Assembly (NCBI GenBank): GCA_027603945.1
Contig: JADIIU010000100.1
Location: 1 to 47,170 of the forward strand
From: Terramyces sp. JEL0728
Lineage: Eukaryota; Chytridiomycota; Chytridiomycetes; Rhizophydiales; Terramycetaceae
DNA: 47,170 nucleotides
Direction: 5' to 3'
Shown: in pieces, positions 10-46,667 of the stretch
Layout of the letters: every line of letters starts with the position of its first letter
How positions within the stretch are numbered: the stretch's first letter is position 1
Translations under genes and position numbers: made by a program
Notes under the pieces: model-generated
The model's input: only the letters and a program-made list of their open reading frames with translations
What the model was told of the DNA's origin: nothing
Databases searched by the model: none

Positions 10-3000
10 CTATACCCCAAGTCGTTCCATCTCTTTTGCCACGATTTTGAACAGTTTCCTCTTTTGTTTCTCGTTCAAACTTATTTTTAACTGCTCTTCA
101 ACGTATCTCCGGATTTCACCTTTGGTTGCTGTGTTGATGTCGTTGTTTGTCAAGAACTGATCTACGTGCTTTTTCAATACTGACGAGCGGATATCAGTTT
201 CTTGCAGGGCGGATATATGCGTAGACGACACATCACTGTAGTTTGATCTGTCGTCCATTAATTTCAAAGAGCTGGTACTGGACATACTCGATCTCTTTTC
301 CATTCGAGGAGCGTCCTTTGAAGTGCTGGATCCAATGAATGTCAAGCTGGACTGAGAATTATCCCTGTATCTAATCGCAGAAGTCTGCAAAACAACTGCA
401 TTTTCACCAATGGAATTTGGGACGATAGTGGTGGAAGGTGATACTGCCCTGTGGTAGGCCATTTGAGGTTTTGCTACTGGGGGCTTTTTGCTTTCCATTC
501 CATCCCAAGTAGTTAATGGAATCGTATCAGGGTCGAAAGCAGTTTCGTCCAACTGCTTCTCCACCTTCTTTCCTTCTTCATAAACCACTCTGGTATTTCC
601 CCAAGAAAAATCGTCCATATTCCATATGGAGTAGAATGGGAGGTAAATGCCAAATACCGGCATTGCTACTAAATACTACGGTTAATGCAAATGCTTACCA
701 CCAGCATCCATCCAAACTTTTCAACTTCAGCATTTAATACAAACAATACGATTTGAATTCCAAATACAGCCGCTATCATGATTATTGAAACAAGGGGTAA
801 TAAAGCATCTGGATTGGCAATGTTGTAATAAATCAGGTACACAATATACACTATTGATGATGGCATCGCAAATGTCACCAGCAAATCTAAAAAGACAATG
901 ATCCGCATGGAAAAGCAGCAGGCATTGCAAAGATTTTCTTGATACAAAAGTTCCACCAAGTTGTGGATGGTAGAGTTGATCCATCTTCTTCTTTGAGATT
1001 TCAATACTGTAAATGTGTCTGGGGCGATAGTTTTGCAAGTAGCATCGGAGCGGTACCCGGTGCTATTCGATGGAAAGTGTTTCAGTAATAATGTGGTCAA
1101 GAATCTATCCTCACCTAAATACAGCAAATTCTTCAGATGCAGAGTGTCTAATTGATTCAGTGAGTATTCACTTAGCAATTTTTTGTGGATTAGATACGGC
1201 TTCTTTTCATATTTGATGCGGTACAGTGAAAAGCAACCAGGTAAACAAGTCACGGAGCCAAACATAGATTCAAAGGCTTTGGTCATGTGTTGAGAAATAA
1301 AGTATTCGTAAATCTGAATCATAGTCACCCAGTTGTCTTTTTCGTTTTCAATTTTAGTGTCTCCGGCCACCCCAATTACTTTACGGTTCTGAACCATGTG
1401 TCCAACCAGTCGATTTAGACTAGAACGTTCAATTGAAGTGTCTGCATCAACCATTAACATGTATTCGTACATGTTTGGATCTACACCCATAATATTCTTG
1501 AATGTGTGATACAAGTGGAATTCAAGGGGATTGAACAGCTCCTGGTAAAACAGCCGCGATAGGAATTGCATCAAAATTAACTGAGAATCTCTTTTACCAC
1601 TAACGTTAGCAAATAATTACCGATTGCCTGCTCTAGAAGTTTCACTAGGCTTTCCAGTCTTGATTACAACGATATATGGAACTAACTTTCCTTCAATGTC
1701 ATAAAGCCCGGAAAATACCTTGGCGTAATTCAGCTGTTGATATCCACTCCCCAACGATTGATAAGCGTACGGCTCAGAATCCATTTCAGCGTCAACCCCT
1801 AAAATGTCCAAGACAATTCTCGGTGTTGGTCTGTCATTTCCTCCACCAATAATCATACCATCGCAAACAATAAACAGCATTCTATGCTTGTCATCATAAT
1901 CAGCGGTGGCAACTGAGTTGATTGTTCGCTTGAGTGAATCCTCGTCTTCGGTGTAACAAGGAATCAAGCAGAGTAAAAACCTGGATTGTGCTTCAGGGTT
2001 GTACGTTACGCCAATTCTTAATGCAGCCAAGAATTTGATCCCAATAATGAAAACCATTATACACGAAAACCCAAACAAGATGTAGTTAGGGATTAGGCAC
2101 TGCAAGTCATTTCTGTGGTCAATTGCACCAACGTAAAACATACCGTTGAGACACTGCATAGTTTGCGCATACAGCTGAGCATCAACTTTTTTCAGTTTTT
2201 CCATTATAAATGTAAGATCCGATCCAGTTGTAGTTTCTTTACGATCAAATATCTGGCCAATTGTCGGACCCATAAAGTTATAAAGCGTTTGGTTTGGGAA
2301 TACATAGAAAGGCGTGATATCAAATACTTTGCCGTATGCAATTAGCAGTTTTGCATTTTCTGTGCCAGACAAGTAATCCGAGATTGTTTGCGAGCCCCAG
2401 ACAACAGTTCCCGCTACACTGCTTTGTAATTGAGGCAAGTAATCATGCTGCACATGAGCTTCCCACCCAAATGGCAGATTGCCGTAGTGTAGCTGGAAAG
2501 AAACGGGTTTAGAAAAGCCGGGACAGTATGTATCCCAATAATTTTCTTTTGGGAAAAGAGCAGAGACATCCCTTCCAAGTACATCGTTCGTCCAGAAAGC
2601 TTCATTGCCCTGGGTATACACTTGTTTCACATGATCGCTGGCAATGCTGTTAATGTGATAATACTGCCCGTACATATAAACCACACCTTTTCCAAAATCA
2701 ATTTGAGACTGCAGCTGCCCAGGAGATAATTGCCTGCCTGTTGGACAGATAATAGGGCCAAGAGCAGCAATCACAAACAGAACAATCAAGTTTAATACGA
2801 CAAATATAATCATCAGCGCTAATTTTTCCCTCCAAGCTGTTCTCCGGTCCTGTCTTTTCATTTTTCCAAGCTTTTCAAGCAGGAAACCTGGGATATAAAA
2901 TGTCAATACGTTTGTCATTGCGAGCCATATCTTTCTTTTTAATGTCATTGGTTTTGCTTGTATGTCGTTTTGTTTTGTGAATTTTGCAGCTTTCTGGGTA

Positions 3001-5363
3001 TCCTGCGCAACATCTGCCAAATGCATAACCGTTTCTTGTTCCCATGAAACTTGAGTCTCATTTAGAGAGTTTCGTTTGCTGCTGGATACCATACTGTCTC
3101 TTTTGGAATCTAATTTAGGAATCTTTGTTGCATTGTTATCGCTGAATAGTCTATACAGTTGTCTGAAAGCTTTGTTGGACAGTAGAATATGGTCTGTCCC
3201 ATTCAGCGCATCTTGCTTGCCCCATCCTTTCTTGAGGATCAGCAAACTACACGCGATCGCAGGGTCTTCGAGTGAAATATTAAGATGTGTCAACACATTT
3301 GAAAACCTTTTCACCACCAACGAATGACTTGGATTTGCAGAATATGGCGATGCAGGATGGTTCGCTATTGAAGGCAAGTACCCCGCATTGATTTGTCTCT
3401 GGACCATCTTATCGTCCCACGATCTAGAGTAGGACATGCTCTTGTTTGGGTTGATATGCTGAACCATCCACATTTTTGTTGATGTTATGCATGACAGCAG
3501 ATCTTCTAATACTAATTGATACTAGAGTTAATGAAAAAGTACTTGGAAAGTAGTAGTATTCTCAACTTCTACTTTGCCTCTCTTGATAGTCATTGATCGA
3601 ACAGAAGTATTGATGGTGCTGGAAGCTGGCGATCGCGAAATCGTTTTTGTTTGTGCGGCAATAACGGTGTACGGATCCAAATCATGCACCAAGGTTTCAA
3701 TAATTTTATCAGAAAATAGGGTGCGCAAGAATACGTTTGTAGTGCCAGGTTCTTCAGGCGATCCTCTAATCAGTGTAACAAATTCACTTTGAATAGCTTC
3801 CAGGTTTTCGCAATTCCAATCTACGACATCGTAGTTGTATAATGCTCCTGAATGTGATATAGCGAATTGGTGGTCTCGCTTTGGTAAAAATATTGGTGAA
3901 TCGCCATGGATCTTTTGCAAGTACTGACAATAAGCAAAATCATTTTCAACACCAATCCCTCTGCATGTTTGCTGGTTAAGTAATCGTAAAGAACCGGTTT
4001 CTAATTGGCAGTAGAAATCCATTATCGTAGAATTTGATTCTACTATAAATTTATATTGTGGAATCTTTTGACTGGATAAAAAGTCATTTGCCGCACTAAT
4101 GCTTGTACTGTAGAGCAATTCTGTCAATTTTTCATTTGTATAGTTGTACAAGAATCTTTGTAATCGTGATTTTTCATTTTGCTCGTCTGGATTATCAAAT
4201 GAAACCATTCCTGGCACATCCAACACTGCAATATAATTGTTGTATTCTCCATCATTTTTACACACCTTTTCATTGACAAAGTTTGTCATCCATGAAACCA
4301 AATTTGAATACAGATTCCTTGCAAGGTTGTCCCGCTGCTTCTTGGCATCTTCAATATTCAGTAGTTTCGATACTCTATCCGTCTTTAAAGTAACTGTTTT
4401 TGAAGTTAGAGTGGTTTCCAGTGTGCTTGGATCTAATCCCAACAATTTAGCCGCAATCCCCAATACATTCTTATTTTTGACCACGCTCTTTGGCTCATGC
4501 TTTCTTCTCAGTAAAGTGGATTCATAATTGCCCCTTCCGATGTCGATATTGCCCAAGTGCAATATCGCAGCAAGAATTTGGAATATTCCGGTTTGTACAT
4601 CCTCTCCTAATCCTAAAATCTTGAAATCGTTGATCAGTTGCTTGTATTTTGAAGCATCATCACTCATCTCCATCTTGAAATCGTGACTATCAAGGTATTG
4701 GAAATCTGTATTAAGGGATAGACGGTCTCTATCTGCAGACGGCATCCCTTTGAGCAGATAAAAGATGTCAAAATTCCTTGAAGATGCTGGCTTACTAGTC
4801 AATAAATGTATATCATGGAGGTAGTTGATTGTCTTTGTGCCAACAAACTTGCCAGTAGCGCTAAACTGATATTCGTTGTACCGGATACAAGTTGTGCTTG
4901 CAGAACCGTTTGAAGAATATGCACTGGTAAATATGGAAAGCATATTTACCGCTTTTGCCGTTAAAGTCGCAGTCCTTGTCTTTTTCCCTCCAACTCTTGC
5001 TAAATCCATCAGGTGCGTTACAATCCGATCAAACGAATATGATTTTCCAGAGTTTGAGTCACCAAGTAGCACTATACTCTGGTCATTTTGCAACAGTTTA
5101 AGCTGCAGGTATGCGTTTGCGGTCAAATCAAATACGGTTTGGAATTCGATTTCGGGATCTAGACTGAACTCTGCAGCCATTTGTTTTGAATCGCTCTTGA
5201 TGCTAGAGTGCGGTCGGATATGCACTAGTGTATTCGATCCGATTTTTGTATTTATAATGCCGGCATTCCAGTTCTCTTTTAGTTTTGTGAGAATTGTGCC
5301 TGCGCTTGTCGGGTGTGTATCGTACAAGTCCGCAACTGCATCTCTGGTATTCCTATTTTTCAT
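10..5363 (-). CDS. Chitin synthase with N-terminal myosin motor (class V/VII type)
   Basis: Plasma-membrane glycosyltransferase that polymerises UDP-GlcNAc into chitin; its myosin-like head is thought to help deliver it along actin. Four exons with introns at 3522-3542 (21 nt), 1600-1620 (21 nt) and 676-698 (23 nt) give 1762 residues. The head (about residues 1-607) has a P-loop GDSNSGKS at 101-108 and a switch-II-like DVPGMVSF. A cytochrome-b5-like segment (LLIAYGKVFDITPF) and membrane helices follow. The catalytic domain has KTGKPSETSRAGNRGKRDSQ (restored by the 1600-1620 splice), VDADT, GEDRFLT and QRRRW. A DEK_C-like domain ends the protein (LKKHVDQFL...MERLGV). Switch I is degenerate, as is common in this class, so the head may be a weak motor. 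Start chosen as the first ATG of the open frame; TAG stop at 10-12. Confidence 0.95.
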
Positions 5364-6080: not shown

Positions 6081-7917
6081 ATGGATCAGCTATCAATGAT
6101 GCTTCAGACACCTTGGCATAATCCAAAGGCAAAGCCAAAGGAAAAGAAGGAAAAGAAACGAAAGCTAATCCAAAGCAGCGAATCGCCAGAATCACTCTCC
6201 ACCAATTCTTCGCCTGAATTCGGATTCCAATTCGATCCTTCTTTCTTCCAACAACCAGTAGACTTTGATCAATTCATGACGAATCCGTTAGATTTTCATT
6301 TACCTAATCAAATGGGCCCTGTTGGACAAATTGGAGGAGTGGAATTTGACAATTTCTTTAATGAATTGGACTTGGAGCGACACTTGGTGGAAAATAGTTT
6401 TCTGTTTAATTGCGGATTTTCAGTTGCAGAAGAATCCAGCCAATCAATTATTCCTTGTCAAAGGCATTTTGTCTTAATACTAGATTTTCAACCTCTGCCA
6501 ATTTGAAAAAAGCACTGTGTTTCCATTCTACATTCTTTTCAACCCACCCCCTGCTATTCCCATCAAAGAAACCTACTTTAGCAGAGAAATATCAGAAAGC
6601 ACAGGCGTATGTGATCAAGGAGACTCCAAAAGTGTATACAAATAACCAGGAATTGTGTGATGATGTTCGAGCCCTGTTGATCCAGGCAATGTCACTGTTC
6701 AGTCTTGGGAATTGTGAAGAATCTCGGAAATTGACAAGTCAAGCATATTTCACTGGAAAGACACATGGACTGTTCACAGCTGAAACTTTTCAAGGAGGAA
6801 ACTCAATTATTTCTGTTGATGATTTGAATTCTCAAGTCGCACTAATGTCGATAACCCAAAAATCATTTTATTCAAATGCATCTGAAGTAGAGATTACAGA
6901 AGGATTGGCCATCATTGCGTTCTGTTTGCGAGCCGATACTTTGAATTCAATTGCAAGCGGGCAAGGTACTTTACACTAATATTAGGGTTCTTGATTGACG
7001 AAGCAGAATATCCAAGTATGCACAAACCCGCATTTGCCAGACCAGCAACCACATCTAGCAGACATCAAAATGTACCACACAACCTTGCACAAAATTCAAT
7101 TTGGGAGAATACTCAGTGGGCTCCAATGTATGACGATATCAAGCAATTGTCTGTATCAATCGGCGATTGGTTACCAGACGCCAAAATGAGAGCATACTCT
7201 GAAATATTCTTGTGGAAAATTGTGCGAAAAGCCCTTAGATTTACCCGCACATACAAATACTCACAGATCTGTTCCAAAAAAGACAAGGCATTTTATAAAC
7301 GAAGGAAATTCAACTACATTATTGTCCGCCAATTCTGCGACACACCAGAAAACTTTGCACCGTTTACAGATCTGACTGTATTTGACTCTAGCAACTACAT
7401 GAATCCCAAACCATTCCCTAAAATTAGAAATTCGCCTGATATCATAAACCTGTATCTTACTCTGCTAGTAATGACCTGCTACCTTCATCTATCTGGTGAT
7501 CAAAACGACTGCAGCAATCTATACAGCTTGAAGATTGATCAACCGAGTGCATACACTTCAAAACAAATTCTATTCTGCTGCATGATGGCTCTAGATCATA
7601 TCTTGCGAATGTGCAATACACCAAACGTACCAAGAGACTCATTCTTTGGTGCATATGATTACAATACCATTCAACTAACTCAGGCAATGATGACACCAGA
7701 TGACCACCATCCATCGCCTATTTTCACAGATGCGTACTCTGCTCTGCTTATTTACAGTATATCTAGCAGCTGCTTTATGGCACACACCAAAGACCCGCTT
7801 TGCCAAGTGATTAAAGACACGATACAGTCTAGTGTCCTGCCCACATTAAAGCGAATTGGCAATATCTGGCCAATGGCGACCAAGTACCATGATTTCCTTG
7901 AAGCTCAAATTAATTGA
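6081..7917 (+). CDS. Fungal transcription-factor-like protein lacking the Zn2Cys6 cluster
   Basis: Member of the regulator family also seen at 20068-21878 and in the duplicated block. Introns at 6464-6483 (20 nt, GC-AG) and 6966-6985 (20 nt) give 598 residues. Start MDQLSMMLQTPW is shared with the paralogue (MDQLEAMLSSPW), which is why 6081 was preferred to the in-frame ATG at 5976. The N-terminus has a lysine-rich, nuclear-signal-like KKEKKRKL but no cysteine cluster. The rest is the family's helical middle-homology-like region, with landmarks KKALCFHSTFFSTHPLLFP, NQELCDDVRALL, SGQGFLIDEAEYP, WAPMYDDIK and SALLIYSISSSC. It should be nuclear but has no visible DNA-binding domain, so it may act through a partner or as a competitor (inference). 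It ends about 60 nt before the convergent SET gene. Confidence 0.85.
6464..6483 (+). other. 20-nt GC-AG intron
   Basis: Sequence gcattttgtcttaatactag. Removing it joins IIPCQ-R to FSTSANLKKALCF, which aligns residue for residue with the paralogue SMQR-QNLSPLLRKALCF. No GT donor gives an in-frame product here. The branch-like ttaat lies close to the AG. Confidence 0.8.
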
Positions 7918-7978: not shown

Positions 7979-9486
7979 TTAACGCTCCCAGAATCTATCA
8001 ACATCCACACCGTAGTCAACAAACAACTCTTGCCCCCTTTCAATCTTTTTGATTGTATTGCAAATAATCTGGTTGACGACTATACCTTCTACAAACTGAA
8101 CATTTACGTGACCCTTCCTTTCGTTAATGTAGTAGAATGGACAGTCAACGCCATCTTTTTTTGTGTACAGCGTTCCGTCATCGTTGGTAGCGTCTAGGAC
8201 TGTATTGCGGTAGCGATGAGAGTATACCGATGCTTGACCTTTTCCTTCTTTGAGTGAATCAAACTCATCTTCAGTCATCGGCACTCCAAAGTAAAAACCA
8301 AGAAACGTTGATTTTGGGATGGTGCGTTTTGCAAATAGTCCATTTCCAGCATTCGGAATTAAGCTTTGCTTGATTTCAAATAAATCACCAAAATTGTCTG
8401 GGATAATGTATTCCTTTGGTTTTTTGAATATATTGGTCTCGTCTACGTTAGGAACAAGCTCTTCAGGAGTCAAGCAGGCCGGATCAATAAACTCTGGTGT
8501 CAAGCATGCTGGATCTATAAATTCCGGTGTAAGGCTTGTCGGATCCAAGAGTTGATCTTGAACAGATAAAATATCATTGGTAAATACAGTAAACTCAGGT
8601 TCTTTTTGCAGGTAATTAAAGTCTTGTTCCAGCGAAGCATTGAAATCTTTGAAGATTCCTTTTTGGGGGGTCTATATGAGTAATAATTACCAATGACAGA
8701 GAAGGCAGGCCGTCCAGCTCTAATCGATCAGATTCCTGTAATATTTCGGGAAACAAATCGTCCAGCTGGAGGTCATTGTTCTTTTGTTTCTTTGGGGTAC
8801 TCTTTTTTGGTGATTTTCTTCTCTTTTTGGGCGTAATAATATCTGTTTCCTTGATATCCGGAACCTTTTGCGGACTTTCACTTCTCCTTTCCACCTCCTT
8901 TTCGTCTTTTATTTCTTCAAGTTTGTTTTCTGAATCTTGCAAGAGCTGAAACGTTTCTGCTTTTTCAATTGCTTTACGATCTCCAAAAAAGTATGGCCAG
9001 TCCAAGGTAGTCAGTTTCTGTGTCCATTCGTTGTAGTTCTTTAACGCTGATTCAAAATTACCAGTTTCAAACGCAAGTTTGAAATGCTGTTTTGTATGTC
9101 CAGGAATGTCTATTCTTACAAAGTACTTGTCTTGTCTTAGTGATTCAATTACCTACAATCAGCGAATATTACCATGATTAGTAGTTAATCGTCCAGATAC
9201 AGTATTCGCAGGAGTATTGCCGTGGAATAACGGAGGAAGATTCCTCTGCTGTGCTAATTCCTTGTCCAGTTTCAACGTTTCCGGTATGATTTCTGCTCTT
9301 GACAGCGGGCGATTGGCTTTTCTGAGTACAAGGAAAATTAAATAGCTTGTCAGCAAATTCCTACCTCTGATTCCACCATCTCGGCTTATCTTTTCTTTTG
9401 GCGATTTCCTTGATTTGCTTCTTTACCGGTTTCTTTTCCTCTACTTGTGGTTTTTCAAGTTGTTTTTTGGCTCGCAGAGATCTCAT
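7979..9486 (-). CDS. SET-domain protein with N-terminal HARE-HTH-like domain
   Basis: Probable chromatin or protein lysine methyltransferase. Introns at 9346-9364 (19 nt), 9131-9172 (42 nt, 20+22 with internal AG|GT) and 8672-8690 (19 nt) give 475 residues. The start MRSLRAKKQLEKPQVEEKK is lysine-rich. A HARE-HTH-like winged-helix segment follows (SYLIFLVLRKANRPLSRAEI ... GNTPANTVSGRL ... DKYFVRIDIPG), then a basic low-complexity stretch (KKRRKSPKKSTPKK). Three 10-residue repeats (DPACLTPEFI type) precede the SET domain, which shows GNGLFAKR, a central YINERKGHVNV and the C-terminal ERGQELFVDYG. The usual NHS/C motif is not canonical, so activity is uncertain. Using only the first 20 nt of the 42-nt intron leaves a frameshift and a stop, so the long form is required. 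Confidence 0.8.
8464..8553 (-). repeat. Three 30-bp tandem repeats coding DPxCLTPEFI
   Basis: Three in-frame units just before the SET domain read DPTSLTPEFI, DPACLTPEFI and DPACLTPEEL. The nucleotide copies differ mainly at third positions, so the array is not brand new. Confidence 0.85.
9131..9172 (-). other. 42-nt twin intron (20+22 nt, internal AG|GT)
   Basis: Read on the minus strand it is gtaatattcgctgattgtag (20 nt) followed directly by a 22-nt GT...AG unit starting gtaattgaat and ending agacaag. Each half looks like a complete local intron. Only removal of both keeps the frame, giving RLTTNH-DKYFVRID. Confidence 0.75.
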
Positions 9487-9643: not shown

Positions 9644-10193
9644 TTACAGTTCCATTTTACACAGTTTTCTGAATTCAGACATTGACACTGATGCTGAATG
9701 ATTCGTATCCCACAAATTGATCATCTGGACAACATTTTCTAGCGGCTGCGGGTCGCTGGATTAGCTTTTTTTACCCAATCTCCTCAAACAAGGCCATCAA
9801 ATCGTTGATCCCAATACTCCCATCGTTGTCAGTATCACAAATGGTAAACGCTTCATTAATATCTGCATCGGTCTGCAGGAATTTCTTGTTTTGCCGATAC
9901 CTAACCATAATTTTGATAAACTCTTCTATTGATACGTCTCCGTTTCCGTCTTGGTCCACTTCCTTGATCATCAGTTTTGATTGTTCCAGGGTGATATCCA
10001 TTCCAATACCTTCCATTGCAGCTTGTAATTCATTTTCTGAAATCGAGCCGTTGCTGTCGAGATCAAATGCGCAAAAAGCCTCAATGTAATAATCGCATTC
10101 TTCCTTTGATAGTCCAGGAAATAGATTTACGTGACTCAGTTTATCACGAAGTTCTTTGACTGGGTTCCGTTTCCTTATATTTATCCCTCCCAT
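9644..10193 (-). CDS. Calmodulin-like four EF-hand protein
   Basis: Predicted calcium sensor of 176 residues. A 19-nt intron (9756-9774, gtaaaaaaagctaatccag) restores the fourth EF-hand, which is lost if one stops at the apparent TAA in the intron. Loops are DLDSNGSISENE, DQDGNGDVSIEE, DTDNDGSIGIND and the degenerate DTNHSASVSMSE. The last lacks some calcium ligands. The start MGGINIRKRNPVKE was chosen as the first ATG followed by family-like sequence; an in-frame extension upstream looks like leader. The spacing fits the calmodulin/centrin superfamily, but no diagnostic centrin motif was seen, so it is left as calmodulin-like. Confidence 0.85.
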
Positions 10194-10457
10194 TTTGTTG
10201 TTTAGATTTTTCTTTTTCAAACCTGTATTATTTTGTATTACCTTGAATGAACTCTGAAAATGTAAACGAGTGTCGCGGCTCTTCGTCGTTATCAAGATTT
10301 GGAATCGGGTGGTTTTCTTGGTTAGCAGAGTTTACCAAATATACTGAAATTCTTTCCTTGTGTTACTGAGCTACCGTCTGTATTTGTTCCCAATGCAAAT
10401 CTAATGGCCGCGCTTTCGTTAATTGGATTTACATGTCTTCAATTAGCGAATCTTTTC

Positions 10458-34865: not shown

Positions 34866-36562
34866 ATGAAGCAACGAAAAAATTACAACCCCTGCAGTAC
34901 TTGTTAATAACCCAGGTGTATGCCGTAGACGCAAAGTAAAATGCGATGGTAAATTGCCCTGTTACAACTGTGAAAAATACAAACGAGGAGTGAAATGCGA
35001 ATACCAAGAGTAGCCCTAATTAACCTAGTGTGCCATACACGCTTGAACACAAGGTCAACCTTGAAAGTCTGTTTTTTGATCAGATTCAAGTGCCAGATAC
35101 TGTTGTAACAATGGAATCGGATGCAGCAGCTGCATTGACTGATTCATCCCAAGACACTATTCTTGATGGGTATGCCAGCAATATGGATGCATTTCAGCTA
35201 TTCATTGATCCTGATATCTACTCTCACTTGATTTCCCTTTCCTTGTATTGGTACTTTCCATTCACGGTCAAAAATGGTTTATTGTCACTATTGGATGCCG
35301 AAAGGACTTCGCTGGTATACCAGAGGGCAATTATTTGTAATGCAATTTTCTATTCGACACATCCCAAACTATTTCCGTCTGTACTTTGTGGGGTCTATCC
35401 TACTTTTCAGGATAAAGTCAATTTGGCTTCGCTGATTTACCTGGACTTGTCGTTTATCAAACCAAAGGAAAGATATGCGGAAAAGGAATTAATAGAGGAT
35501 TTCAAAGGGATTTTTGCATACAGCAGTTTACTAGCGATGCTTGGATACCCCGATAAAGCAGTATCGCAATTTCAGGAAGCTTATTTATTAGCAGTCAGGT
35601 ATGGCCTGTTCAATCCAAACGAAATATCTGATGCGATTACTTTGGACGACTTGGCAAAGCTAAACATACACAAGGAAAGAACACCATCTTTGACACCAGA
35701 TGAATGGGACACGAGGTTGCTTCTTTACAACTTGTGTTTATCCAGTGATACGTATCAGAGCATGATTCACGGGATACAATTTGTGGTCGATGATACATTA
35801 TTTGATCAGTACTTGCAAGTAACCCAAAAACCATTCCGCCAGGCAAGAGAAATGCCTCGATTCAAGCCAAATGCAGCTACGTTTGCTGAGAATACCATCT
35901 GGCAAGGAACAGACTATGCACGCACATTTGAAATATTAAAAAAGTCTTGCAAGGTCTTTGAGTATATCAACGCTCAAGAGTTTTGCCATTCATCAATCAA
36001 AAGAACAAAGATACATCGCAGGATAATGAAATTTTCCAGATCAAAGCAGAAATCAAGTGCCTTAAAACAAGAATTGCTTGCTGAATTATTCCCGTGCTTT
36101 CAGCTTGAAGTATTTGAACCGGAATTCCACGATTTGACAAATTTCGTCCAGCCGATACAAGTGAACAATACTAGATTCAAAGTTCCGCATTGTTATACAA
36201 TACCTTTATCCAATTTGATCATGTACTGCTACTTGAACCAGCACGAAACTGAACCTCAAGAAATCAAACCCAGCAGCGAAAAATACGATATCAAAACTAT
36301 CTTTACAGCAGTTTTTAATTACCTGCAAGCTTTAATCGTGTCTTCAAATGAGGGCAGAGGGGTTAATCCACATTTACAACCACCAACTGTAATTTTTCTC
36401 GTTTACTGTATTGCAAGCAGCTGTTTGCTGAAAACACGCTGCAGCAAGATTAAAGAAAATATCAAAACTGTTGTTCTGCCGGTGCTGGATAATGGTGCTT
36501 CTTTATGGCATGTATGTAAACCCTATTCTGATCAAATGCGCAAATTACTAGACATGAATTAA
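34866..36562 (+). CDS. Zn2Cys6 transcription factor b (copy A)
   Basis: A 552-residue tandem paralogue of the preceding factor, starting 45 nt after its stop. Introns are 34897-34915 (gtacttgttaataacccag) and 35010-35028 (gtagccctaattaacctag), both 19 nt and in the same positions as in its neighbour. The cluster is C-SV-C-RRRKVK-C-DGKLP-C-YN-C-EKYKRGVK-C. Downstream landmarks are FYSTHPKLFPSVLCG, LIEDFKGIFAYSS, TPDEWDTRLLLYNLCLSSDTY and FLVYCIASSC. Its stop is 8 nt from that of the convergent factor c. Confidence 0.9.
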
Positions 36563-36569: not shown

Positions 36570-38198
36570 TTAAAAATTTAAAAGCATCTTTTCTAGCCCT
36601 GCTTTATACTGATTTGCTAGCGGCCAAATGGTTCCAATCTTTGACAGCATTTTCAAAACAGTTGCACATCCGTTGGTCAGGGTTTCTCTAATCATTGGAT
36701 CCATTGTGGAATTACTGGCTGCGTATAGAGTGCTTGTAGCGATGCATTGGATAAAGTAAGCCATCATTACGTTTCCAAACAACGGATTTGGCAGGGGAGA
36801 TTCAACAAAATCGGCAAATTGGATCAGGTATATCATTGCATTGAAAACAGCAAGGAATATTTCTACATTTGAAAACATTTCCATTCCGTTCAACTCCAAA
36901 CAGTAGAATGTATTGTCATTATTCAGCACTCCCGATAAGTGTGTGTAGCAGAACCCCACGAGTATTCCGCACAATTTCATGTAGTGGTCCCTAATGTTTT
37001 GCAAATTTGTAGGCTGTTTAACTACAGGTAGCTGCCCATATACAAACGGAACAAGCGAATTAATAATTGCAAAATCCGGTTGGATACTACTGAGAGAATT
37101 AAGTAAAAACAGGTGATACTCTTTCCTGAACATTGAATCTGATTCAAATATTTCGTATTTTTTCCTTCTAGAAAAGTCTATGATTGTGCGATATGACTTC
37201 ATAAGCTGCATTTGATTCTTTGCTTTATGTATTGCGTCTGGCAGGTATTGCGGTATTAAGCAAGTGGTTTCTTTGATAGTATCGAAAATTTGTTTCCATT
37301 CCTTGTCCCACAAATGATACTGGCTTTTTCTTATATTTTGGTACTCTACTATATTTACTTTTGGGTTATTGAAAGGGGCAATATTGGGATATTGTGAATG
37401 GTCAATGACAAAGCCTTCGCCTTCAGACATTGAGCAGTACGTGTCTATTTGAAAAATGTAGCAATACAGAGAAAAGCGTTCTGTAATTTCACATTCATTC
37501 AGCTGCGGTGTAGAAATGGTAAGTAGTGAAACTAGGTCGTCGATAGACAGCTGGCTATTGTGATTGAAATTATCTGGATGGAATACTTTGTATTTCTTGC
37601 CGATTTTGAAACAGTCAGACAACAGCTGTCTTTGCATGTCATAATCACCAATTTGATGATAGCCTAAATTAACTGCAAGTACCTATCGATTGATGCAGCA
37701 GCGCATGCAAATCATCGCACAGTTCTTGATTCGTAATATAGCTGGAGAGAGGCTTGATCATTTTTGCATCAATACAGAACCTATTAGCGACCTTTAATCG
37801 CTGTTGGAAAGTTGGATTCGCGGGAAACAGCAAAGGATGATTAGAGTAAAAGGAACTATTAAAGCAAAGGGCTTTTCTCAACAAAGGAGACAAGTTTTGC
37901 CTCTGCATTGAATGGACAGATTGAAACTTTTCATTTACTGAATATCCCTGATGGTACAAGAACGAGAGTTCAATCAGGTGCTGTTCAATTGACTGGTCAA
38001 TCACTGTGTCAACTAGCACCGTTTCCATTGCAATTTCCTTTGGGTTGTAATCGTAAATGCAAATTGGAGTAGTGTCTTTGGAAATTCTCTTGAACGATAA
38101 GCATGCGGAACATGGTTGATGTCCGTCGCATTTGACTTTGCGCTGCTTGCACCTCGCTAATATTAGCTTTTAGTACCACAGGGTTTCTTTTTCTCCAT
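36570..38198 (-). CDS. Zn2Cys6 transcription factor c (copy A)
   Basis: A 529-residue zinc-cluster factor. Introns are 38157-38176 (20 nt, gtactaaaagctaatattag) and 37664-37682 (19 nt, gtacttgcagttaatttag). Start MEKKKPC sits directly before the cluster C-AR-C-KQRKVK-C-DGHQP-C-SA-C-(X13)-C, whose last spacing is longer than in factors a and b. The first intron again follows the first cysteine codon by one base. The body is closest to the cluster-less proteins at 6081-7917 and 20068-21878 (SMQRQNLSPLLRKALCFNS, NQELCDDLHALL, GEGFVIDHSQYP). Confidence 0.9.
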
Positions 38199-38336: not shown

Positions 38337-39208
38337 ATGATATCTCCGCAGCAAATTCAGGATTTAGGCAAAAGTAACGAGTTGGCGTATCCATGCATCG
38401 TTTCCGGAATACTTTTTTTCATTGAAGCCGTATTCTTTCTAGTCTATATTTACAACGATTCCAGGAAACACAGTCGTCAATTCAATACGCCCTTCAACCT
38501 TTCACTGGCAGGTAATTTATATTTGATTCAGGTACAATAATGTGTAATTCCAGGTTTACTCTTAATGAATGCAGCAACAGCATTTGCATTCGGTAATTCG
38601 ACGCTCCTACCAAAATTATCCTTGTATTGTTACATTGCATCTTCTTTCTGGCTTTCTCAGTACAAATCGCTGTTCATTGGTACATTAATCTGATTCAGGT
38701 TACTCTTACTTTAGATCATACACTTTAATTGAGGCAAAAGGATATAAAAAGAGGTTGGAATATGGATTATGGTTTTCCTGCTTTATTTTCCAATTTTCAT
38801 GGTTAATCAAGCTGCTTTTGTTGACAGACACGCAAATCAACGTAATCGGGTTATCCAACCTGTGCGGATTAATTGGGTCTGTAATTGCACTTTTATGGGA
38901 TATGGGGTTCATGGCTATTTTCATGAACCGAATATGGTATAGGACTGAAAAAGACAGCAGAATAGACACGATCGCAGTAAATATTGTTTAATTAGATTTG
39001 TGGCATATACGCCTGTGTATTTTCTATACTTGCACTGGTTGTATCGCTGATACCAGTTGATGCCAAGGAATACGCGTATTTTGCCGGTTTGTGGATGCTG
39101 AATGGATGTTGTTTGTCTCTTGTAGTAATGAAAATCATGCTTATACAAGAAGAAAAACTTGCAAGGTTTGAAATGGACAGCACCTTGGTTATTGCACATG
39201 TAGAGTAA
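38337..39208 (+). CDS. Small seven-transmembrane protein (copy A)
   Basis: A 263-residue membrane protein with seven predicted helices, unrelated in sequence to the other 7TM pair. Introns are 38512-38553 (42 nt twin), 38680-38698 (gtacattaatctgattcag, 19) and 38977-38995 (gtaaatattgtttaattag, 19). Helices run from CIVSGILFFIEAVFFLVYIY to YFAGLWMLNGCCLSLVVM, with a basic loop after helix 3 (EAKGYKKRLEYG) and a charged loop after helix 5 (RIWYRTEKDSR). A receptor role is plausible but unproven. It is divergent from factor c with 138 nt between ATGs. Confidence 0.8.
38512..38553 (+). other. 42-nt twin intron (20+22 nt, internal AG|GT), copy A
   Basis: First half gtaatttatatttgattcag (20 nt), followed immediately by a 22-nt GT...AG unit starting gtacaataat and ending aattccag. 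Removing all 42 joins FNLSLAG to LLLMNAATAF within a membrane helix. The same arrangement is at 45971-46012 in copy B. Confidence 0.8.
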
Positions 39209-39513: not shown

Positions 39514-40382
39514 ATGAAAAAAGTTTCCAAAATGATTGTACCAAAAATAGTTGCCAATCTAGGTCCAATCACATCTTTTCCAAGTCAAGTCAACGTTGAA
39601 AAACCACAGTTTACTCCAGAGCAGACTAGTTTAATTGATCAACTCTCCACGCAAGCCCCACAACTTGCACAATCGGACCTAGAAAGGGAATGGTTGGATA
39701 GGGGTTGCTTGACCAGATACTTGAAAGCCACCAAATGGGATTTACCGAAATCAAGTACTATTAGTTAACAAGAGTTGAAAGATTGGAAAAAACCCTTGAA
39801 TGGAGACGCGAATACAAACCAGATGAGATTACTGCAGAAAATGTTGAGGAAGAGGCAATAACTGGAAAACAAATAATTTCCGGATTTGATAAATGCGGGA
39901 GACCGATACTCTACTTGATCCCAGCGAGAGAAAATACAAAAACCTATGATCGTCAATTGCGATATACTGTCTACAATTTGGAAAAGGTAATCAAAATGAT
40001 GCCGGAGGGAGTAGAAACGTTTTGTATTTTGGTAGACTACCAAGATCTGAGTGTGATGACTGCACCACCACTTTCAGTCTCCAAAAAGTTTTTAGAAATA
40101 TTTGGCAACCACTATCCTGAACGCATGCATATCTCATTCATTGTCAATCCATCTTGGTATATCTGGGTCTTTTTCAAGTTGATTAAACCGTTCATTGACC
40201 CAGTCACAGCTGCCAAATTGCATTTTGTAGGACAAAATCAATCTAAAAAGGAAGATGGAATGGGGGGATATGTCGAGCTTACTGATTATATAGATGAGCA
40301 TATGTTGCTCAAGAACTATGGCGGTACTCATGATTGGGACTGGGATTTTGAATACTACTGGAGTAAAATAAAACATATCTAG
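39514..40382 (+). CDS. SEC14-like CRAL-TRIO lipid-transfer protein (copy B)
   Basis: 282 residues with its 20-nt intron at 39755-39774. Two substitutions relative to copy A (N to K in NVEKPQFTPEQ and I to V in LEKVIKMM). All structural motifs are intact, so both copies look functional. Confidence 0.9.
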
Positions 40383-40459
40383 TCCGTGTGTATGCGAATA
40401 ATTAAGACTCTTGCTGGTACCCCAAAAATTACTCTTTGGTGACTTTTTTAGTTGCCAAA

Positions 40460-42267
40460 ATGAAGCAACGAAAAAACTACAATCCGTGCAGTAAGAGTAA
40501 ATTAATGTACAGCAACTTGCCGGAAACGCAAAGTGAAATGCGATGGAGAATTGCCATGCTACAACTGCCAGAAATACCGCAAGCAAGTGAAATGCGAGTA
40601 CGAAGAGTAATTTTCTTTAATGCAGAATACAGTACACACTGCAACAGCGAAAAGTTGATATTCAGAGTTTGTTTGCAGATGAAATTGTTGTTCCTGATAC
40701 CCTGGTGGTTTCCAATCAGTTTGAATTTGGATCTCCATTCAGTTCAAACACTGCGTATGGGTATCAATCGCCAAGCAAACAAAATGCAGTTGTAAATCAG
40801 AATGTTCCGGTTCAACCTGGATTTATGGATTCACCACCAGCATTCCCGCCAGCCAGCATTGATCCATTCCACTATTTCAACGATCCAGAAATCTACTCGC
40901 ATTTGCTTTCGCTCTCGACGTTTGTGCACTTTCCCTTTTCAGTTTTCAACGGAAATTTACACTTGACGAAATTGGAGGAAGCGACATTAATATATAAAAA
41001 GGCGATTATATGCAACTCTATATTCTTTTCAATCCACCCAAAGTTGTTTCCGTCAGTGTTATTGGGGATTCCCCCGTCATTTCAGGATAAAGTGAATCTC
41101 TCTTGTTTGATTTACATGGACAGTTCACTAATCAAACCAAAAGAAGAATATAAATCAGACCATGAAATGATTGAAGATTTCAAGGGAATGTTTACGTATT
41201 CCAACTCTTTGTTTGGCGTTGGATTTCCCGATAGATCACTGTCACTATTTCAAGAAACCTACATCCTGGCCATGCGATACAGATTGTTCAATCCGAATGA
41301 CACAAGATCGGAAAATCTTACAATTGACGATCTGGCAAAGATGGTAGAGTTTGTGGATCTGCAGGTTAATGTAGTGACTCCAGACGAATGGGACAACAGA
41401 CTAATCCTGTATAACCTGTGTCTTTCGAGCGATACATATATCAGCATGATATCAGGGGTGCAATTCATAGTAGACGACACATTATTTGATCACTATCTGG
41501 AAAAATCAGAGCCAAGCTCATTCATGTCGATTCCAAGACGAGATTTTCCAAATATAACAGTTCCAAATGATTATGCACATGCAGAAAACACAATATGGCA
41601 AGGAACTGAAAATGCTGCTACTTATGAAGTAATCAAGCATTCATTCAAATTGCTAGAGTATGTCAACGCGCGGGAATTTTGCAAATCAGGAATCTATAGA
41701 ACTAAAGTTTATCGTCGGATCATTACATACTCGAGATCCAAATCTAAATCAGCCGAAACAAAGGCAGAGTTACTGAAGGATCTCGATAAGCACTTTAAAT
41801 TAGAAATGTTTGAACCTGAATTTGCAGATTTGGCCAATTTCATTGCTGGAGAGCTTGATATCCAAAACAAAAAGACTAAGTTTCCACATAGCTTTATTAT
41901 CCCACTCTCCAATCTGATAATGTACTGTTATTTAAATCAGCATGAAGTAGAGGACCAGGAAATCAAACCCCAAGGGCCAAAGTACCCAATCAAGACCATT
42001 TTTACAGCAATTTTCAACTATCTCATCACCATTATTGAATCGGCAAAGGAGGGCGATGGTGTAAACCCTCATTTACAACCGCCAACCATAATCTTTTTGG
42101 TTTATTGCATTAGCAGCAGTTGTCTAGTAAAAGCGGGTTCTAATGAGATGAAGGAAAAGATTGTCGGTAAAGTGTTGCCTGTATTGGACAATGGCAGTAG
42201 CGTGTGGGAACTGTGCAGGACTTATGCAACTCAAATGCGTCGCTTGTTGCAGATAATCAATTTTTAA
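40460..42267 (+). CDS. Zn2Cys6 transcription factor a (copy B)
   Basis: 588 residues with introns 40491-40512 (22 nt) and 40607-40625 (19 nt, gtaattttctttaatgcag). The zinc cluster is identical to copy A. Eight substitutions occur, all in the C-terminal region (for example TFVHFPF for TFVYFPF and IAGELDIQNKKTKFPHSFII for ITGELDIQNKKIKFPHSFTI). The frame is fully open. Confidence 0.9.
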
Positions 42268-42313
42268 ATATAATCAAGCCATCGTTTTCAAGTGGCTTTA
42301 TTTCCCAAAACTA

Positions 42314-44022
42314 ATGAAGCAACGAAAAAATTACAACCCCTGCAGTACTTGTTAGTAACCCAGGTGTATGCCGTAGACGCAAAGTAAAATGCGATGGTAA
42401 ACTGCCCTGTTACAACTGTGAAAAATACAAACGAGGAGTGAAATGCGAATACCAAGAGTAGCCCTAATTAACCTAGTGTGCCATACACGCTTGAACACAA
42501 GGTCAACCTTGAAAGTCTGTTTTTTGATCAGATTCAAGTGCCAGATACTGTTGTAACAATGGAATCAGTCAATGCAGCTGCAAACGAAGCTGCATTGACT
42601 GATTCATCCCAAGACACTATTCTTGATGGGTATGCCAGCAATATGGATGCATTTCAGCTATTCATTGATCCTGATATCTACTCTCACTTGATTTCCCTTT
42701 CCTTGTATTGGTACTTTCCATTCACGGTCAAAAATGGTTTATTGTCACTATTGGATGCCGAAAGGACTTCGCTGGTATACCAGAGGGCAATTATTTGTAA
42801 TGCAATTTTCTATTCGACACATCCCAAGCTATTTCCGTCTGTACTTTGTGGGGTCTGCCCTACTTTTCAGGATAAAGTCAATTTGGCTTCGCTGATTTAC
42901 CTGGACTTGTCGTTTATCAAACCAAAGGAAAGATATGCGGAAAAGGAATTAATAGAGGATTTCAAAGGGATTTTTGCATACAGCAGTTTACTAGCGATGC
43001 TTGGATACCCCGATAAAGCAGTATCGCAATTTCAGGAAGCTTACTTGTTAGCAGTCCGGTATGGCCTGTTCAATCCAAGCGAAATATCTGATGCGATTAC
43101 TTTGGACGACTTGGCAAAGCTAAACATACACAAGGAAAGAACACCATCTTTGACACCAGATGAATGGGACACGAGGCTGCTTCTTTACAACTTGTGTTTA
43201 TCCAGTGATACGTATCAGAGCATGATTCACGGGATACAATTTGTGGTCGATGATACGTTGTTTGATCAGTACTTGCAAGTAACCCAAAAACCATTCCGCC
43301 AGGCAAGAGAAATACCTCGATTCGAGCCAAATGCAGCTACGTTTGCTGAGAATACCATCTGGCAAGGAACAGAGTATGCACGCACATTTGAAATATTGAA
43401 AAAGTCTTGCAAGGTCTTTGAGTATATCAACGCTCAAGAGTTTTGCCATTCATCAATCAAAAGAACAAAGATACATCGCAGGATAATAAAGTTTTCCAGA
43501 TCAAAGCAGAAATCAAGTGCCTTCAAACAAGAATTGCTTGCTGAATTATTCCCGTGCTTTCAGCTTGAAGTATTTGAACCGGAATTCCACGATTTGACTA
43601 ATTTCGTCCGGCCGATACAAGTGAACAACACTAGATTCAAAGTTCCGCATTGTTATACAATACCTTTATCCAATTTGATCATGTACTGCTACTTGAACCA
43701 GCACGAAACTGAACCTCAAGAAATCAAACCCAGCGGCGAAAAATACGATATCAAAACTATCTTTACAGCAGTTTTTAATTACCTGCAAGCTTTAATCGTG
43801 TCTTCAAATGAGGGCAGAGGTGTTAATCCACATTTACAACCACCAACTGTAATTTTTCTCGTTTACTGTATTGCAAGCAGCTGTTTGCTGAAAACACGCT
43901 GCAGCAAGATTAAAGAAAATATCAAAACTGTTGTTCTGCCGGTGCTGGATGACGGTGCTTCTTTATGGCATGTGTGTAAACCCTATTCTGATCAAATGCG
44001 CAAATTACTAGACATGAATTAA
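42314..44022 (+). CDS. Zn2Cys6 transcription factor b (copy B)
   Basis: 556 residues with introns 42345-42363 (gtacttgttagtaacccag) and 42458-42476, both 19 nt. Relative to copy A it has a net four-residue insertion near the N-terminus (ESVNAANEAALT for ESDAAAALT) and about ten substitutions. It is the most diverged of the five duplicated pairs. The zinc cluster is intact. Confidence 0.9.
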
Positions 44023-44029
44023 AATTATA

Positions 44030-45658
44030 TTAAAAATTTAAGAGCATCTTTTCTAGCCCTGCTTTATACTGATTTGCTAGCGGCCAAATGGTTCCAATCT
44101 TTGACAGCATTTTCAAAACAGTTGCACATCCGTTGGACAGGGTTTCTCTAATCATTGGATCCACTGTGGAATTGCTGGCTGCGTATAGAGTGCTTGTAGC
44201 GATGCATTGGATAAAGTAAGCCATCATCACGTTTCCAAACAGCGGATTTGGCAGGGGAGATTCAACAAAATCGGCAAATTGGATCAGGTATATCATTGCA
44301 TTGAAAACAGCAAGGAATATTTCTACATTTGAAAACATTTCCATTCCGTTCAACTCCAAACAGTAGAATGTATTGTCATTATTCAGCACTCCTGATAAGT
44401 GTGTGTAGCAGAACCCCACGAGTATTCCGCACAATTTCATGTAGTGGTCCCTAATGTTTTGCAAGTTTGTAGGCTGTTTAACTACAGGCAGCTGCCCATA
44501 TACAAACGGAACAAGCGAATTAATAATTGCAAAATCCGGTTGGATACTACTGAGAGAATTAAGTAGAAACAGGTGATACTCTTTCCGGAACATTGAATCT
44601 GATTCAAATATTTCGTATTTTTTCCTTCTAGAAAAGTCTATGATTGTGCGATATGACTTCATAAGCTGCATTTGATTCTTTGCTTTGTGTATTGCGTCTG
44701 GCAGGTATTGCGGTATTAAGCAAGTGGTTTCTTTGATAGTATCGAAAATCTGTTTCCACTCCTTGTCCCACAAATGATACTGGCTTTTTCTTATATTTTG
44801 GTACTCTACTATATTTACTTTTGGGTTATTGAAAGGGGCAATATTGGGATATTGTGAATGGTCAATGACAAAGCCTTCGCCTTCAGACATTGAGCAGTAC
44901 GTGTCTATTTGAAAAATGTAGCAATACAGAGAAAAGCGTTCTGTAATCTCACATTCATTCAGCTGCGGTGTAGAAATGGTAAGTAGTGAAACTAGGTCGT
45001 CGATAGACAGCTGGCTATTGTGATTGAAATTATCTGGATGGAATACTTTGTATTTCTTGCCGATTTTGAAACAGTCAGACAGCAGCTGTCTTTGCATGTC
45101 ATAATCACCAATTTGATGATAGCCTAAATTAACTGCAAGTACCTATCGATTGATGCAGCAGCGCATGCAAATCATCGCACAGCTCTTGATTCGTAATATA
45201 GCTGGAGAGAGGCTTGATCATTTTTGCATCAATACAGAACCTATTAGCGACCTTTAATCGCTGTTGGAAAGTTGGATTCGCGGGAAACAGCAAAGGATGA
45301 TTAGAGTAAAAGGAACTATTAAAGCAGAGGGCTTTTCTCAGCAAAGGAGACAAGTTTTGCCTCTGCATTGAATGGACAGATTGAAACTTTTCATTTACTG
45401 AATATCCCTGATGGTACAGGAACGAGAGTTCAATCAGGTGCTGTTCAATTGACTGGTCAATCACTGTGTCAACCAGCACCGTTTCCATTGCAATTTCCTT
45501 TGGGTTGTAATCGTAAATGCAAATTGGAGTAGTGTCTTTGGAAATTCTCTTGAACGATAAGCATGCGGAACATGGCTGATGTCCGTCGCATTTGACTTTG
45601 CGCTGCTTGCACCTCGCTAATATTAGCTTTTAGTACCACAGGGTTTCTTTTTCTCCAT
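44030..45658 (-). CDS. Zn2Cys6 transcription factor c (copy B)
   Basis: 529 residues with introns 45617-45636 (20 nt) and 45124-45142 (19 nt). Only two substitutions from copy A were seen (SNSTV for SNSTM and ETLSN for ETLTN). The zinc cluster is unchanged. It converges on factor b with 7 nt between stops. Confidence 0.9.
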
Positions 45659-45795
45659 TCTTTTTCGGCAAGGTTTTCGGTTTCGTATTTTGCTTTTGAG
45701 GCTAGTGTTTGCGGCTTGAGAATTGTCAATCACACTTAAGCTGTGGCTTTTTAAATCCAAGACAAAAAAACACATAGCAGATCAACCGAATATCA

Positions 45796-46667
45796 ATGAT
45801 ATCTGCGCAGCAAATTCAGGATTTAGGCAAAAGTAACGAGCTGGCGTATCCATGCATCGTTTCCGGAATACTTTTTTTCATTGAAGCCGTATTCTTTCTA
45901 GTCTATATTTACAACGATTCCAGGAAACACAGTCGTCAATTCAACACTCCCTTCAACCTTTCACTGGCAGGTAATTTATATTTGATTCAGGTACAATAAT
46001 GTGTAATTCCAGGTTTACTCTTAATGAATGCAGCAACAGCATTTGCATTCGGTAATTCGACGCTCCTACCAAAATTATCCTTGTATTGTTACATTGCATC
46101 TTCTTTCTGGCTTTCTCAGTACAAATCGCTGTTCATTGGTACATTAATCTGATTCAGGTTACTCTTACTTTAGATCATACACTTTAATTGAGGCAAAAGG
46201 ATATAAAAAGAGGTTGGAATATGGATTATGGTTTTCCTGCTTTATTTTCCAATTTTCATGGTTAATCAAGCTGCTTTTGTTGACAGACACGCAAATCAAC
46301 GTAATCGGGTTATCCAACCTGTGCGGATTAATTGGGTCTGTAATTGCAATTTTATGGGATATGGGGTTCATGGCTATTTTCATTAACCGAATATGGTATA
46401 GGACTGAAAAAGACAGCAGAATAGACACGATCGCAGTAAATATTGTTTAATTAGATTTGTGGCATATACGCCTGTGTATTTTCTATACTTGCACTGGTTG
46501 TATCGCTGATACCAGTTGATGCCAAGGAATACGCGTATTTTGCCGGTTTGTGGATGCTGAATGGATGTTGTTTGTCTCTTGTAGTAATGAAGATCATGCT
46601 TATACAAGAAGAAAAACTTGCAAGGTTTGAAATGGACAGCACCTTGGTTATTGCACATGTAGAGTAA
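45796..46667 (+). CDS. Small seven-transmembrane protein (copy B)
   Basis: 263 residues with introns 45971-46012 (42-nt twin), 46139-46157 and 46436-46454 (19 nt each). Three substitutions from copy A (MISAQQ for MISPQQ, IAILWD for IALLWD, FINRIW for FMNRIW). Its last 20 nt overlap the 3' end of the kinase-like gene on the other strand. Confidence 0.8.
45971..46012 (+). other. 42-nt twin intron, copy B
   Basis: Identical in structure to the copy A element, with AG|GT between the 20-nt and 22-nt halves. Confidence 0.8.

Follow-up and report, generated by a model that had tools for sequence, protein, structure and literature searches.

Contig C100 of the chytrid Terramyces sp. JEL0728, 47,170 bases long and analysed here in full (the window), carries protein-coding genes interrupted by predicted introns of 19-24 nucleotides (nt), whose size distribution rises abruptly at 19 nt. 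These segments have GT-AG or rare GC-AG ends and a branch motif, the host is a fungus, and alignments with related proteins run across the junctions. Judged from the sequences, they are very probably U2-type spliceosomal introns that would be removed by a conventional spliceosome with its landmarks at minimum spacing, and 19-24 nt is likely to be near the smallest intron that a spliceosome can remove. Terramyces is a free-living soil saprobe (Fungi, Chytridiomycota, Rhizophydiales, Terramycetaceae), and the other named genus of its family is Boothiomyces. The assembly comprises 15.0 Mb in 231 contigs. The chitin synthase model of the window was 100% identical to the deposited Terramyces protein HDV01_000368 over the region searched, and the topoisomerase I gene on contig C17 (165781 bases) likewise matched a deposited protein of Terramyces sp. 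JEL0728.

A first-pass annotation of the window had claimed that nearly all introns are ultrashort, and gene models, bridging scans and a 200-kb genome sample bear this out. The window and the twenty 10-kb pieces of other contigs that make up this sample were analysed on both strands, 247,170 bases in total. Initial gene-finder settings let through 3175 introns, mostly noise; they were replaced by a flat-length model, with a flat length cost to 150 nt, and by final models that permitted only introns of 17-28 nt with GT or GC donors and AG acceptors and thus cannot count longer introns. The final models gave 92 genes, 247 introns and 55,191 codons. Seven introns of the second copy of a duplication in the window were removed, leaving 240, of which the window contributed 39 and the other contigs 201. 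The window introns were of 19 nt (16), 20 nt (13), 21 nt (5), 22 nt (3), 23 nt (1) and 24 nt (1), matching the earlier count of 39 introns of 19-24 nt among 43, with 19 nt the commonest size. The latter held in the window only, since 20 nt led in the other contigs (52, 80, 47 and 13 introns of 19, 20, 21 and 22 nt; nine of other lengths between 17 and 28 nt). Over all 240 the mean was 20.2 nt and the median 20 nt; 235 were of 19-24 nt and 214 of 18-21 nt. The annotation had also proposed a genome-wide length plot, and the 20 sampled pieces gave a peak at 19-21 nt like that of the window.

The bridging scans looked for spans that join a pair of open frames, each 60 codons long or more and each terminated by a stop no farther than 40 codons on. 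Without a filter, GT..AG spans of 19, 20 and 21 nt numbered 49, 75 and 28, while the peak was weak or absent in the control end pairs (GT..AC 13, 12 and 8; GA..AG 12, 18 and 8; CT..AC 22, 25 and 6). In the branch-filtered scan the duplicate was masked, ultrashort candidates served to train the motif weights, and the branch had to lie 4-8 nt from the end. GT..AG then gave 41, 56, 20 and 10 spans of 19, 20, 21 and 22 nt, 127 in all, and each control pair (GT-AC, GT-TG, GA-AG, CT-AC, CT-AG and GT-CG) gave 0-5 over the same lengths. Above 24 nt, GT..AG exceeded most single controls, yet no bin took it outside the control range; many of these longer spans shared their acceptor with an ultrashort candidate. 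The 19-22 nt peak was unchanged in a scan without a length prior, which used a plain branch motif 2-12 nt from the intron end. In the flat-length model, 213 of 328 predicted introns were of 19-22 nt; the 100 longer than 26 nt were thinly scattered over lengths, and some apparently joined neighbouring genes.

The introns along the window are given below. Entries come from the gene models, and any additional or different source is named.

676..698, minus strand: 23-nt intron, chitin synthase/myosin gene (10-5363); contiguous in 119/119 relatives
1600..1620, minus strand: 21-nt intron, chitin synthase/myosin gene; restores GNRGKRDSQ; contiguous in 118/119 relatives
3522..3542, minus strand: 21-nt intron, chitin synthase/myosin gene; Boothiomyces P0002 fits 21 nt, deposited P0001 skips more
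6464..6483, plus strand: 20-nt GC-AG intron, gene 5976-7917
6966..6985, plus strand: 20-nt intron, gene 5976-7917
8672..8690, minus strand: 19-nt intron, SET-domain gene 7979-9175 (also Pfam)
9153..9172, minus strand: 20-nt intron, 5' end of the SET-domain gene, start codon uncertain
9756..9774, minus strand: 19-nt intron, EF-hand gene 9644-10823 (also Pfam)
10223..10241, minus strand: 19-nt intron, EF-hand gene
10317..10335, minus strand: 19-nt intron, EF-hand gene; the flat-length model chose 31 nt nearby, 10344-10374
10413..10432, minus strand: 20-nt intron, EF-hand gene
10465..10484, minus strand: 20-nt intron, EF-hand gene
11089..11108, plus strand: 20-nt intron, CH_2-domain gene 10882-13416 (also Pfam)
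11219..11237, plus strand: 19-nt intron, CH_2-domain gene
11485..11503, plus strand: 19-nt intron, CH_2-domain gene
11675..11695, plus strand: 21-nt intron, CH_2-domain gene
12035..12053, plus strand: 19-nt intron, CH_2-domain gene
12835..12854, plus strand: 20-nt intron, CH_2-domain gene
13151..13170, plus strand: 20-nt intron, CH_2-domain gene
17153..17176, minus strand: 24-nt intron, gene 15755-17395
18081..18102, plus strand: 22-nt intron, repeat-rich protein gene 17869-18751
21237..21258, minus strand: 22-nt intron, gene 20068-21878
21513..21531, minus strand: 19-nt intron, gene 20068-21878
22511..22561, plus strand: longer, 51-nt intron, HtrA-like gene 22318-25255 (flat-length model and Trypsin_2 score)
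22645..22663, plus strand: 19-nt intron, HtrA-like gene; restores RDPVHDFG
23311..23330, plus strand: 20-nt intron, HtrA-like gene
24518..24536, plus strand: 19-nt intron, HtrA-like gene
24769..24787, plus strand: 19-nt intron, HtrA-like gene
25191..25210, plus strand: 20-nt intron, 3' end of the HtrA-like gene; the flat-length model chose 57 nt
25904..25923, plus strand: 20-nt intron, CwfJ-like gene 25319-26743 (also Pfam)
26081..26099, plus strand: 19-nt intron, CwfJ-like gene
27368..27388, plus strand: 21-nt intron, peptidase M13 gene 26931-28922 (also Pfam)
28423..28443, plus strand: 21-nt intron, peptidase M13 gene; restores HELSHGFDD (also Pfam)
32318..32337, plus strand: 20-nt intron, CRAL-TRIO gene (also Pfam)
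33044..33065, plus strand: 22-nt intron, Zn2Cys6 gene 33013-34820; same codon position as 34897-34915 (also Pfam)
33160..33178, plus strand: 19-nt intron, Zn2Cys6 gene 33013-34820
34897..34915, plus strand: 19-nt intron, paralogous gene 34866-36562
35010..35028, plus strand: 19-nt intron, paralogous gene 34866-36562
37664..37682, minus strand: 19-nt intron, gene 36570-38315
38157..38176, minus strand: 20-nt intron, gene 36570-38315
38977..38995, plus strand: 19-nt bridging span outside all gene models (bridging scan)
39755..39774, plus strand: 20-nt second-copy intron, outside the 39
40491..40512, plus strand: 22-nt second-copy intron, outside the 39
40607..40625, plus strand: 19-nt second-copy intron, outside the 39
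42345..42363, plus strand: 19-nt second-copy intron, outside the 39
42458..42476, plus strand: 19-nt second-copy intron, outside the 39
45124..45142, minus strand: 19-nt second-copy intron, outside the 39
45617..45636, minus strand: 20-nt second-copy intron, outside the 39
46436..46454, plus strand: second copy of the span 38977-38995 (bridging scan)

The junctions that had been said to restore GNRGKRDSQ, HELSHGFDD and RDPVHDFG all recur in the gene models. The last element of the earlier annotation, which ended at 46454, was found in the bridging scan and not in the gene models.

GT was the donor in 238 of the 240 introns and GC in two, as in U2-type GT-AG and rare GC-AG introns, and the control end pairs had no peak. 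Position +3 was A in 218, +4 was A in 138 and +6 was T in 150. The +5 position, usually G in fungal introns, was T in 103, A in 57, G in 50 and C in 30; it is not kept as G despite the presence of a Luc7 gene. A branch motif could be scored in 236 introns and was TTAAT, CTAAT, TTAAC or CTAAC in 151 of them; it lies near the 3' end and is complementary to the GUAGUA of U2, as in U2-type introns. The predicted branch A fell at intron position 14 in 109 introns, 15 in 93, 16 in 20, 17 or 18 in 12 and 11 in two, and never at position 12 or 13. The distance from branch A to the last base (the tail) was 5 nt in 108, 6 nt in 93, 7 nt in 15, 8 nt in three, 4 nt in 11 and 3 nt in six. Both lower edges were also sharp in the scan without a length prior (branch A at 13 in one span and at 14 in 59; tail of 4 nt in 10 spans and of 5 nt in 83), and thus they are not a product of the prior. 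The two distances were independent of each other (chi-square 1.06, p 0.90, 3x3 core table). The branch A had been placed 11-14 nt from the donor and 5-7 nt from the AG; the predicted donor side was slightly farther, at 14-15, with a tail of mostly 5-6 nt. With these positions, the argument that the spliceosome must cope with crowding is sound as geometry. On average 1.5 nt separate the five-base branch motif from the final YAG, leaving hardly any room for a pyrimidine tract there. The AU content of the introns was 69%.

Relatives were compared at individual junctions, 119 listed for chitin synthase and for topoisomerase I and the best 120 hits, Boothiomyces included, for U2AF65. Chitin synthase junctions 2 and 3 were contiguous in 118/119 and 119/119 relatives; junction 1, in a variable stretch, was contiguous in 27/60, including Boothiomyces. 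Five internal ultrashort junctions of topoisomerase I were contiguous in 119, 116, 116, 119 and 116 of 119, and four further predicted junctions fell in its variable N-terminal tail, where relatives are uninformative. Two U2AF65 junctions were contiguous in 119/120 and 116/120, and the fourth, at residue 3, lay beyond the comparison. The third was corrected to a 20-nt intron, GTGCATTTTGCTAATACTAG, after which the protein reads as in Boothiomyces and aligns with human U2AF65 without a gap. The misplaced version, of equal length, had nonetheless been contiguous in 112/120 relatives, and thus contiguity shows the length and frame of an intron and not its exact borders. A supposed 33-nt intron of U2AF65 was dropped, since this part of the Terramyces sequence looks like coding sequence. 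With the correction made, proteins back 11 ultrashort introns and one 64-nt intron in these three genes.

Pfam domains and gene copies served as further checks. Removing the introns fused the pieces of SF1-HH (66.2 and 42.9 bits, to 113.5), Slu7 (139.2 and 104.2, to 289.2), Prp18 (109.1 and 55.5, to 178.5) and LUC7 (101.6 and 64.9, to 187.3). Two near-identical copies of a gene that we take to be VMP1-like (L029 and L030, on contigs C199 and C111) have 98.9% identical DNA and the same predicted protein, with nine coding base differences and no coding indels; of their five introns, one differs in length between the copies, at 21 vs 20 nt. The window paralogues at 33013 and 34866, the former with a Zn2Cys6 domain by Pfam, have introns at the same codons, and the first intron is 22 nt in one and 19 nt in the other. 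Retention would shift the frame for 184 of the 240 introns and bring in a stop codon for 48 of the remaining 56. Stops were more frequent in introns with a length divisible by three (48/56 vs 101/184, Fisher p 1.8e-5), an excess that may arise because the gene model takes stop-free introns of such lengths for exon.

Some longer introns accompany the ultrashort class, which is dominant and not exclusive. Removing the 51-nt intron at 22511-22561 raised Trypsin_2 from 87 to 95.4 bits and deleted a 17-residue insertion, and this intron is likely to be real. In topoisomerase I, predicted introns of 25 and 21 nt were wrong and should be a single 64-nt intron. One could therefore suppose that the true introns are generally longer, with the same donors joining farther acceptors, as several deposited Terramyces and Boothiomyces models have it: Terramyces chitin synthase P0001 holds two of the three introns and is without 21 residues at junction 1; Terramyces P0121 retains a stop-free 21-nt intron as seven residues; and P0121 and Boothiomyces P0122 both are without conserved blocks. 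We consider this very improbable. The sequence skipped in P0001, YQLVLEDLLSCITSTKMWMV, occurs with two substitutions in Boothiomyces P0002; in topoisomerase I, 116/119 relatives are contiguous at junctions 352 and 465; and the GT..AG spans above 24 nt remained within the control range. Two blocks missing from P0122 (20 and 30 residues) start exactly at Terramyces intron positions, which hints that Boothiomyces may share the positions of these ultrashort introns. The deposited gene models of both genera are wrong at several ultrashort introns, some by placing longer, false introns.

The first-pass annotation had advised comparing U2, U2AF, SF1 and Prp8 with those of other fungi. U2 small nuclear RNA (snRNA) was found (140.2 bits) and is ordinary, with GUAGUA as its branch-recognition stretch. 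Prp8 is present (PROCN, 774 bits), and its gene carries three ultrashort introns in the stretch read. SF1 is present with its helix-hairpin, KH domain and zinc knuckles, and there are genes for Slu7, Prp18, Luc7 and U2AF65; all six proteins carry their main Pfam domains. The search covered U2, these six proteins, U1 and U6 snRNAs and U1-70K. Together with the GT/GC-AG ends and the branch motif at fixed spacing, the components found fit a spliceosome, and they argue against the idea that the segments are kept in mRNA and skipped in translation, are removed without a spliceosome or are assembly errors. Skipping of inserts occurs in some yeast mitochondria; assembly errors would not share a single consensus across 240 places. 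We regard this group of explanations as very improbable.

The most notable component is U2AF65. RNP1 of its first RNA-recognition motif (RRM1) is NKEHCHVEF in both Terramyces and Boothiomyces, with HCH in place of F/Y-A-F. Among the best 120 hits, 118 have F or Y at the first of these positions and 118 have an aromatic at the third (F in 117, Y in one), and U2AF65 of Globomyces, Kappamyces, Batrachochytrium and Spizellomyces keeps aromatics at both. RNP2 of RRM1 retains its Tyr. RNP1 of RRM2 is SKGFAFCEY, the same as in the chytrids among the matches listed, and RRM2, the tryptophan motif and the start of the C-terminal U2AF homology motif (UHM) are like those of relatives. The tryptophan motif is the contact for U2AF35. 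RRM1 of Boothiomyces U2AF65 is predicted to fold (predicted local distance difference test 93-98 in blocks 261-340), with an overall predicted template modelling score of only 0.33. A metagenome relative with 54% identity (P0243) has RNP1 AKNSAIVEF, with S and I at the two positions, and RNP2 RLVFHNLP, so its RRM1 aromatics are lost in a different way.

Given this anatomy and this protein, the conventional spliceosome of our preferred reading would meet a limit of packing. The helix between the 5' splice site and U6, of about six or seven bases, would lie beside the helix between U2 and the branch, of about seven, and a branch A at position 14 would be roughly the closest fit; intron length itself would therefore act as a ruler and be part of the recognition signal. 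Five nt from branch A to the intron end would complete the minimum spacing. U2 and SF1/U2AF might read the branch and the AG as one block, with the 3' AG taken directly downstream of the branch A. Without a pyrimidine tract, U2AF65 would lean on RRM2 and two protein contacts, and RRM1, with HCH in its RNP1, might be freed from binding the tract. These contacts of U2AF65 are its U2AF ligand motif to U2AF35 and its UHM to SF1.

Several points weigh against this account. The change in U2AF65 could be drift: the introns may be real and the RRM1 change unrelated to them, or directed at another RNA or protein target, with U2AF65 working as elsewhere in fungi. This is a serious possibility, although we hold it to be somewhat the less probable side. 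Among the matches listed, such a change occurs in two Terramycetaceae proteins, one of them a gene model, plus the differently altered metagenome protein, and the RNP2 Tyr is retained. On the other hand, RNP1 aromatics are lost from one RRM only, in a lineage without a pyrimidine tract, and RRM2 resembles that of relatives, as do the tryptophan motif and the start of the UHM. The model does not explain why +5 is G in just 50 introns. The existence of 51- and 64-nt introns means that a length ruler is not absolute. Of the 13 checkable predicted junctions in the three proteins, 10 were right, two wrong and one misplaced. In the assembly, U1 snRNA was not found by its Rfam family, U6 snRNA was not found by Rfam family, pattern or BLAST, and PF12220 (U1-70K) was not found; none of these blanks shows absence. 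For U6, neither a 28-base core pattern with three mismatches nor BLAST with human U6 gave a match, and since fungal U6 can differ from this core by more than three bases, the blank does not amount to absence. U6 could be interrupted by introns or missing from the assembly. Two weak Rfam matches to U6, of 27.4 and 26.9 bits and below the cut-off, fall within coding genes, namely the pair of VMP1-like loci described above (VTT-domain-like, 29.9 bits, narrowly under its cut-off), and were rejected. The idea that U1 has been lost was dropped because a gene for Luc7, a U1-associated protein, is present.

The 64-nt intron of topoisomerase I (L018, on contig C17) can be divided precisely at AG|GT into three units (22, 21 and 21 nt) that all begin and end like introns. 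Among 1418 GT..AG spans of 64 nt in the sample, only one splits into three such units, and it is L018 itself. Stepwise (recursive) splicing or tandem intron gain may account for it. Tandem introns as a general rule were rejected: a frame-bridging test gave four double arrays vs at most one in a control, of which two are copies of one site and one is the first two topoisomerase units, so that only the single topoisomerase case was kept as a lead. A more far-reaching proposal would be that the Terramycetaceae spliceosome measures introns, with a loop of 14-15 nt and a tail of 5-6 nt as the signal, the tract gone, RRM1 retired from RNA, and some longer introns removed stepwise as head-to-tail units of about 21 nt. 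Taken as a whole, this appears unlikely.

Heterotrich ciliates, mikrocytids (a rhizarian parasite group) and the relict algal nuclei called nucleomorphs are established cases of introns of 15-21 nt, and the sizes quoted earlier for Stentor (15-16 nt) and for nucleomorphs (18-21 nt) agree with the papers cited here. Stentor coeruleus introns are 15-16 nt long with the branch A at position 10 or 11, a 5-nt tail and 75.6% AU (PMC9505925). Those of Terramyces are likewise nuclear, AU-rich (69%) and in a single narrow size class with a fixed branch A, and they have the same lower limit of a 5-nt tail, but they are mostly of 19-22 nt with the A at 14 or 15 in 202/236. The two organisms thus seem to have the tail limit in common, with loop limits four positions apart. 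The table of the Stentor paper lists SF1, U2AF1 and U2AF2 as present and Slu7 and Prp18 as not found (PMC9505925), whereas Terramyces has both of the latter with their Pfam domains. Chlorarachniophyte nucleomorph introns, numerous and of 18-21 nt (PMC10245619, PMC5014332), are nearest in size, a range that holds 214/240 Terramyces introns; unlike that relict endosymbiont nucleus, Terramyces uses them in the main nucleus of a fungus, with an assembly of 15 Mb. In mikrocytid parasites, 217/224 introns are of 16 nt and the others of 17 nt, and the spliceosome is strongly reduced, to 17-19 identified proteins plus U2, U4 and U6 (PMC10245619). Terramyces shares the many uniform tiny introns but differs in their larger size and in having Prp8, SF1, U2AF65, Slu7, Prp18 and Luc7. 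The microsporidian Encephalitozoon cuniculi, a fungal relative, has 37 introns in all, of 22-76 nt (PMC3629993); some are very short with GT-AG ends, as in Terramyces, but Terramyces introns form one sharp class. Cryptococcus neoformans introns, with a mean of 63 bp called relatively short in a survey of 644 fungal genomes (PMC8476143), are U2-type like those of Terramyces and about three times as long. The same survey gives two chytrids a mean of 3.93 introns per kb of coding sequence (PMC8476143); the density in our models was about 1.5 per kb. A mean of around 20 nt is given for no fungus in the part of the survey cited (PMC8476143), and the openly licensed PubMed Central literature searched reports ultrashort introns neither for a chytrid nor as a rule for any fungus.

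Against the literature searched, what is new here is that such introns are nuclear and fungal, that they occur with the step-2 factors not found in the Stentor study, and that U2AF65 carries a lineage-specific change. If the preferred reading is true, a conventional spliceosome reaches 19 nt while keeping Slu7, Prp18, SF1 and U2AF65, in a test system nearer to the yeasts, where splicing is best studied. The two sharp limits, the A at 14 and the tail of 5 nt as in Stentor, would make the geometric minimum of the spliceosome directly accessible, and loss of the pyrimidine tract would be linked to one protein through the change in U2AF65.

The duplication in the window is a tandem one of about 7.3 kb (32001-39330 and 39431-46790) with 112 substitutions between the copies, three of them inside the seven shared introns, where there are no indels. 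The CwfJ-like gene at 25319-26743, with PF04677 and zinc knuckles, is split by two ultrashort introns and is presumably related to lariat-debranching cofactors. The Boothiomyces U2AF65 record (P0241) has an extra ribosomal L24 domain (PF17136), which belongs to a separate upstream gene in the Terramyces models.

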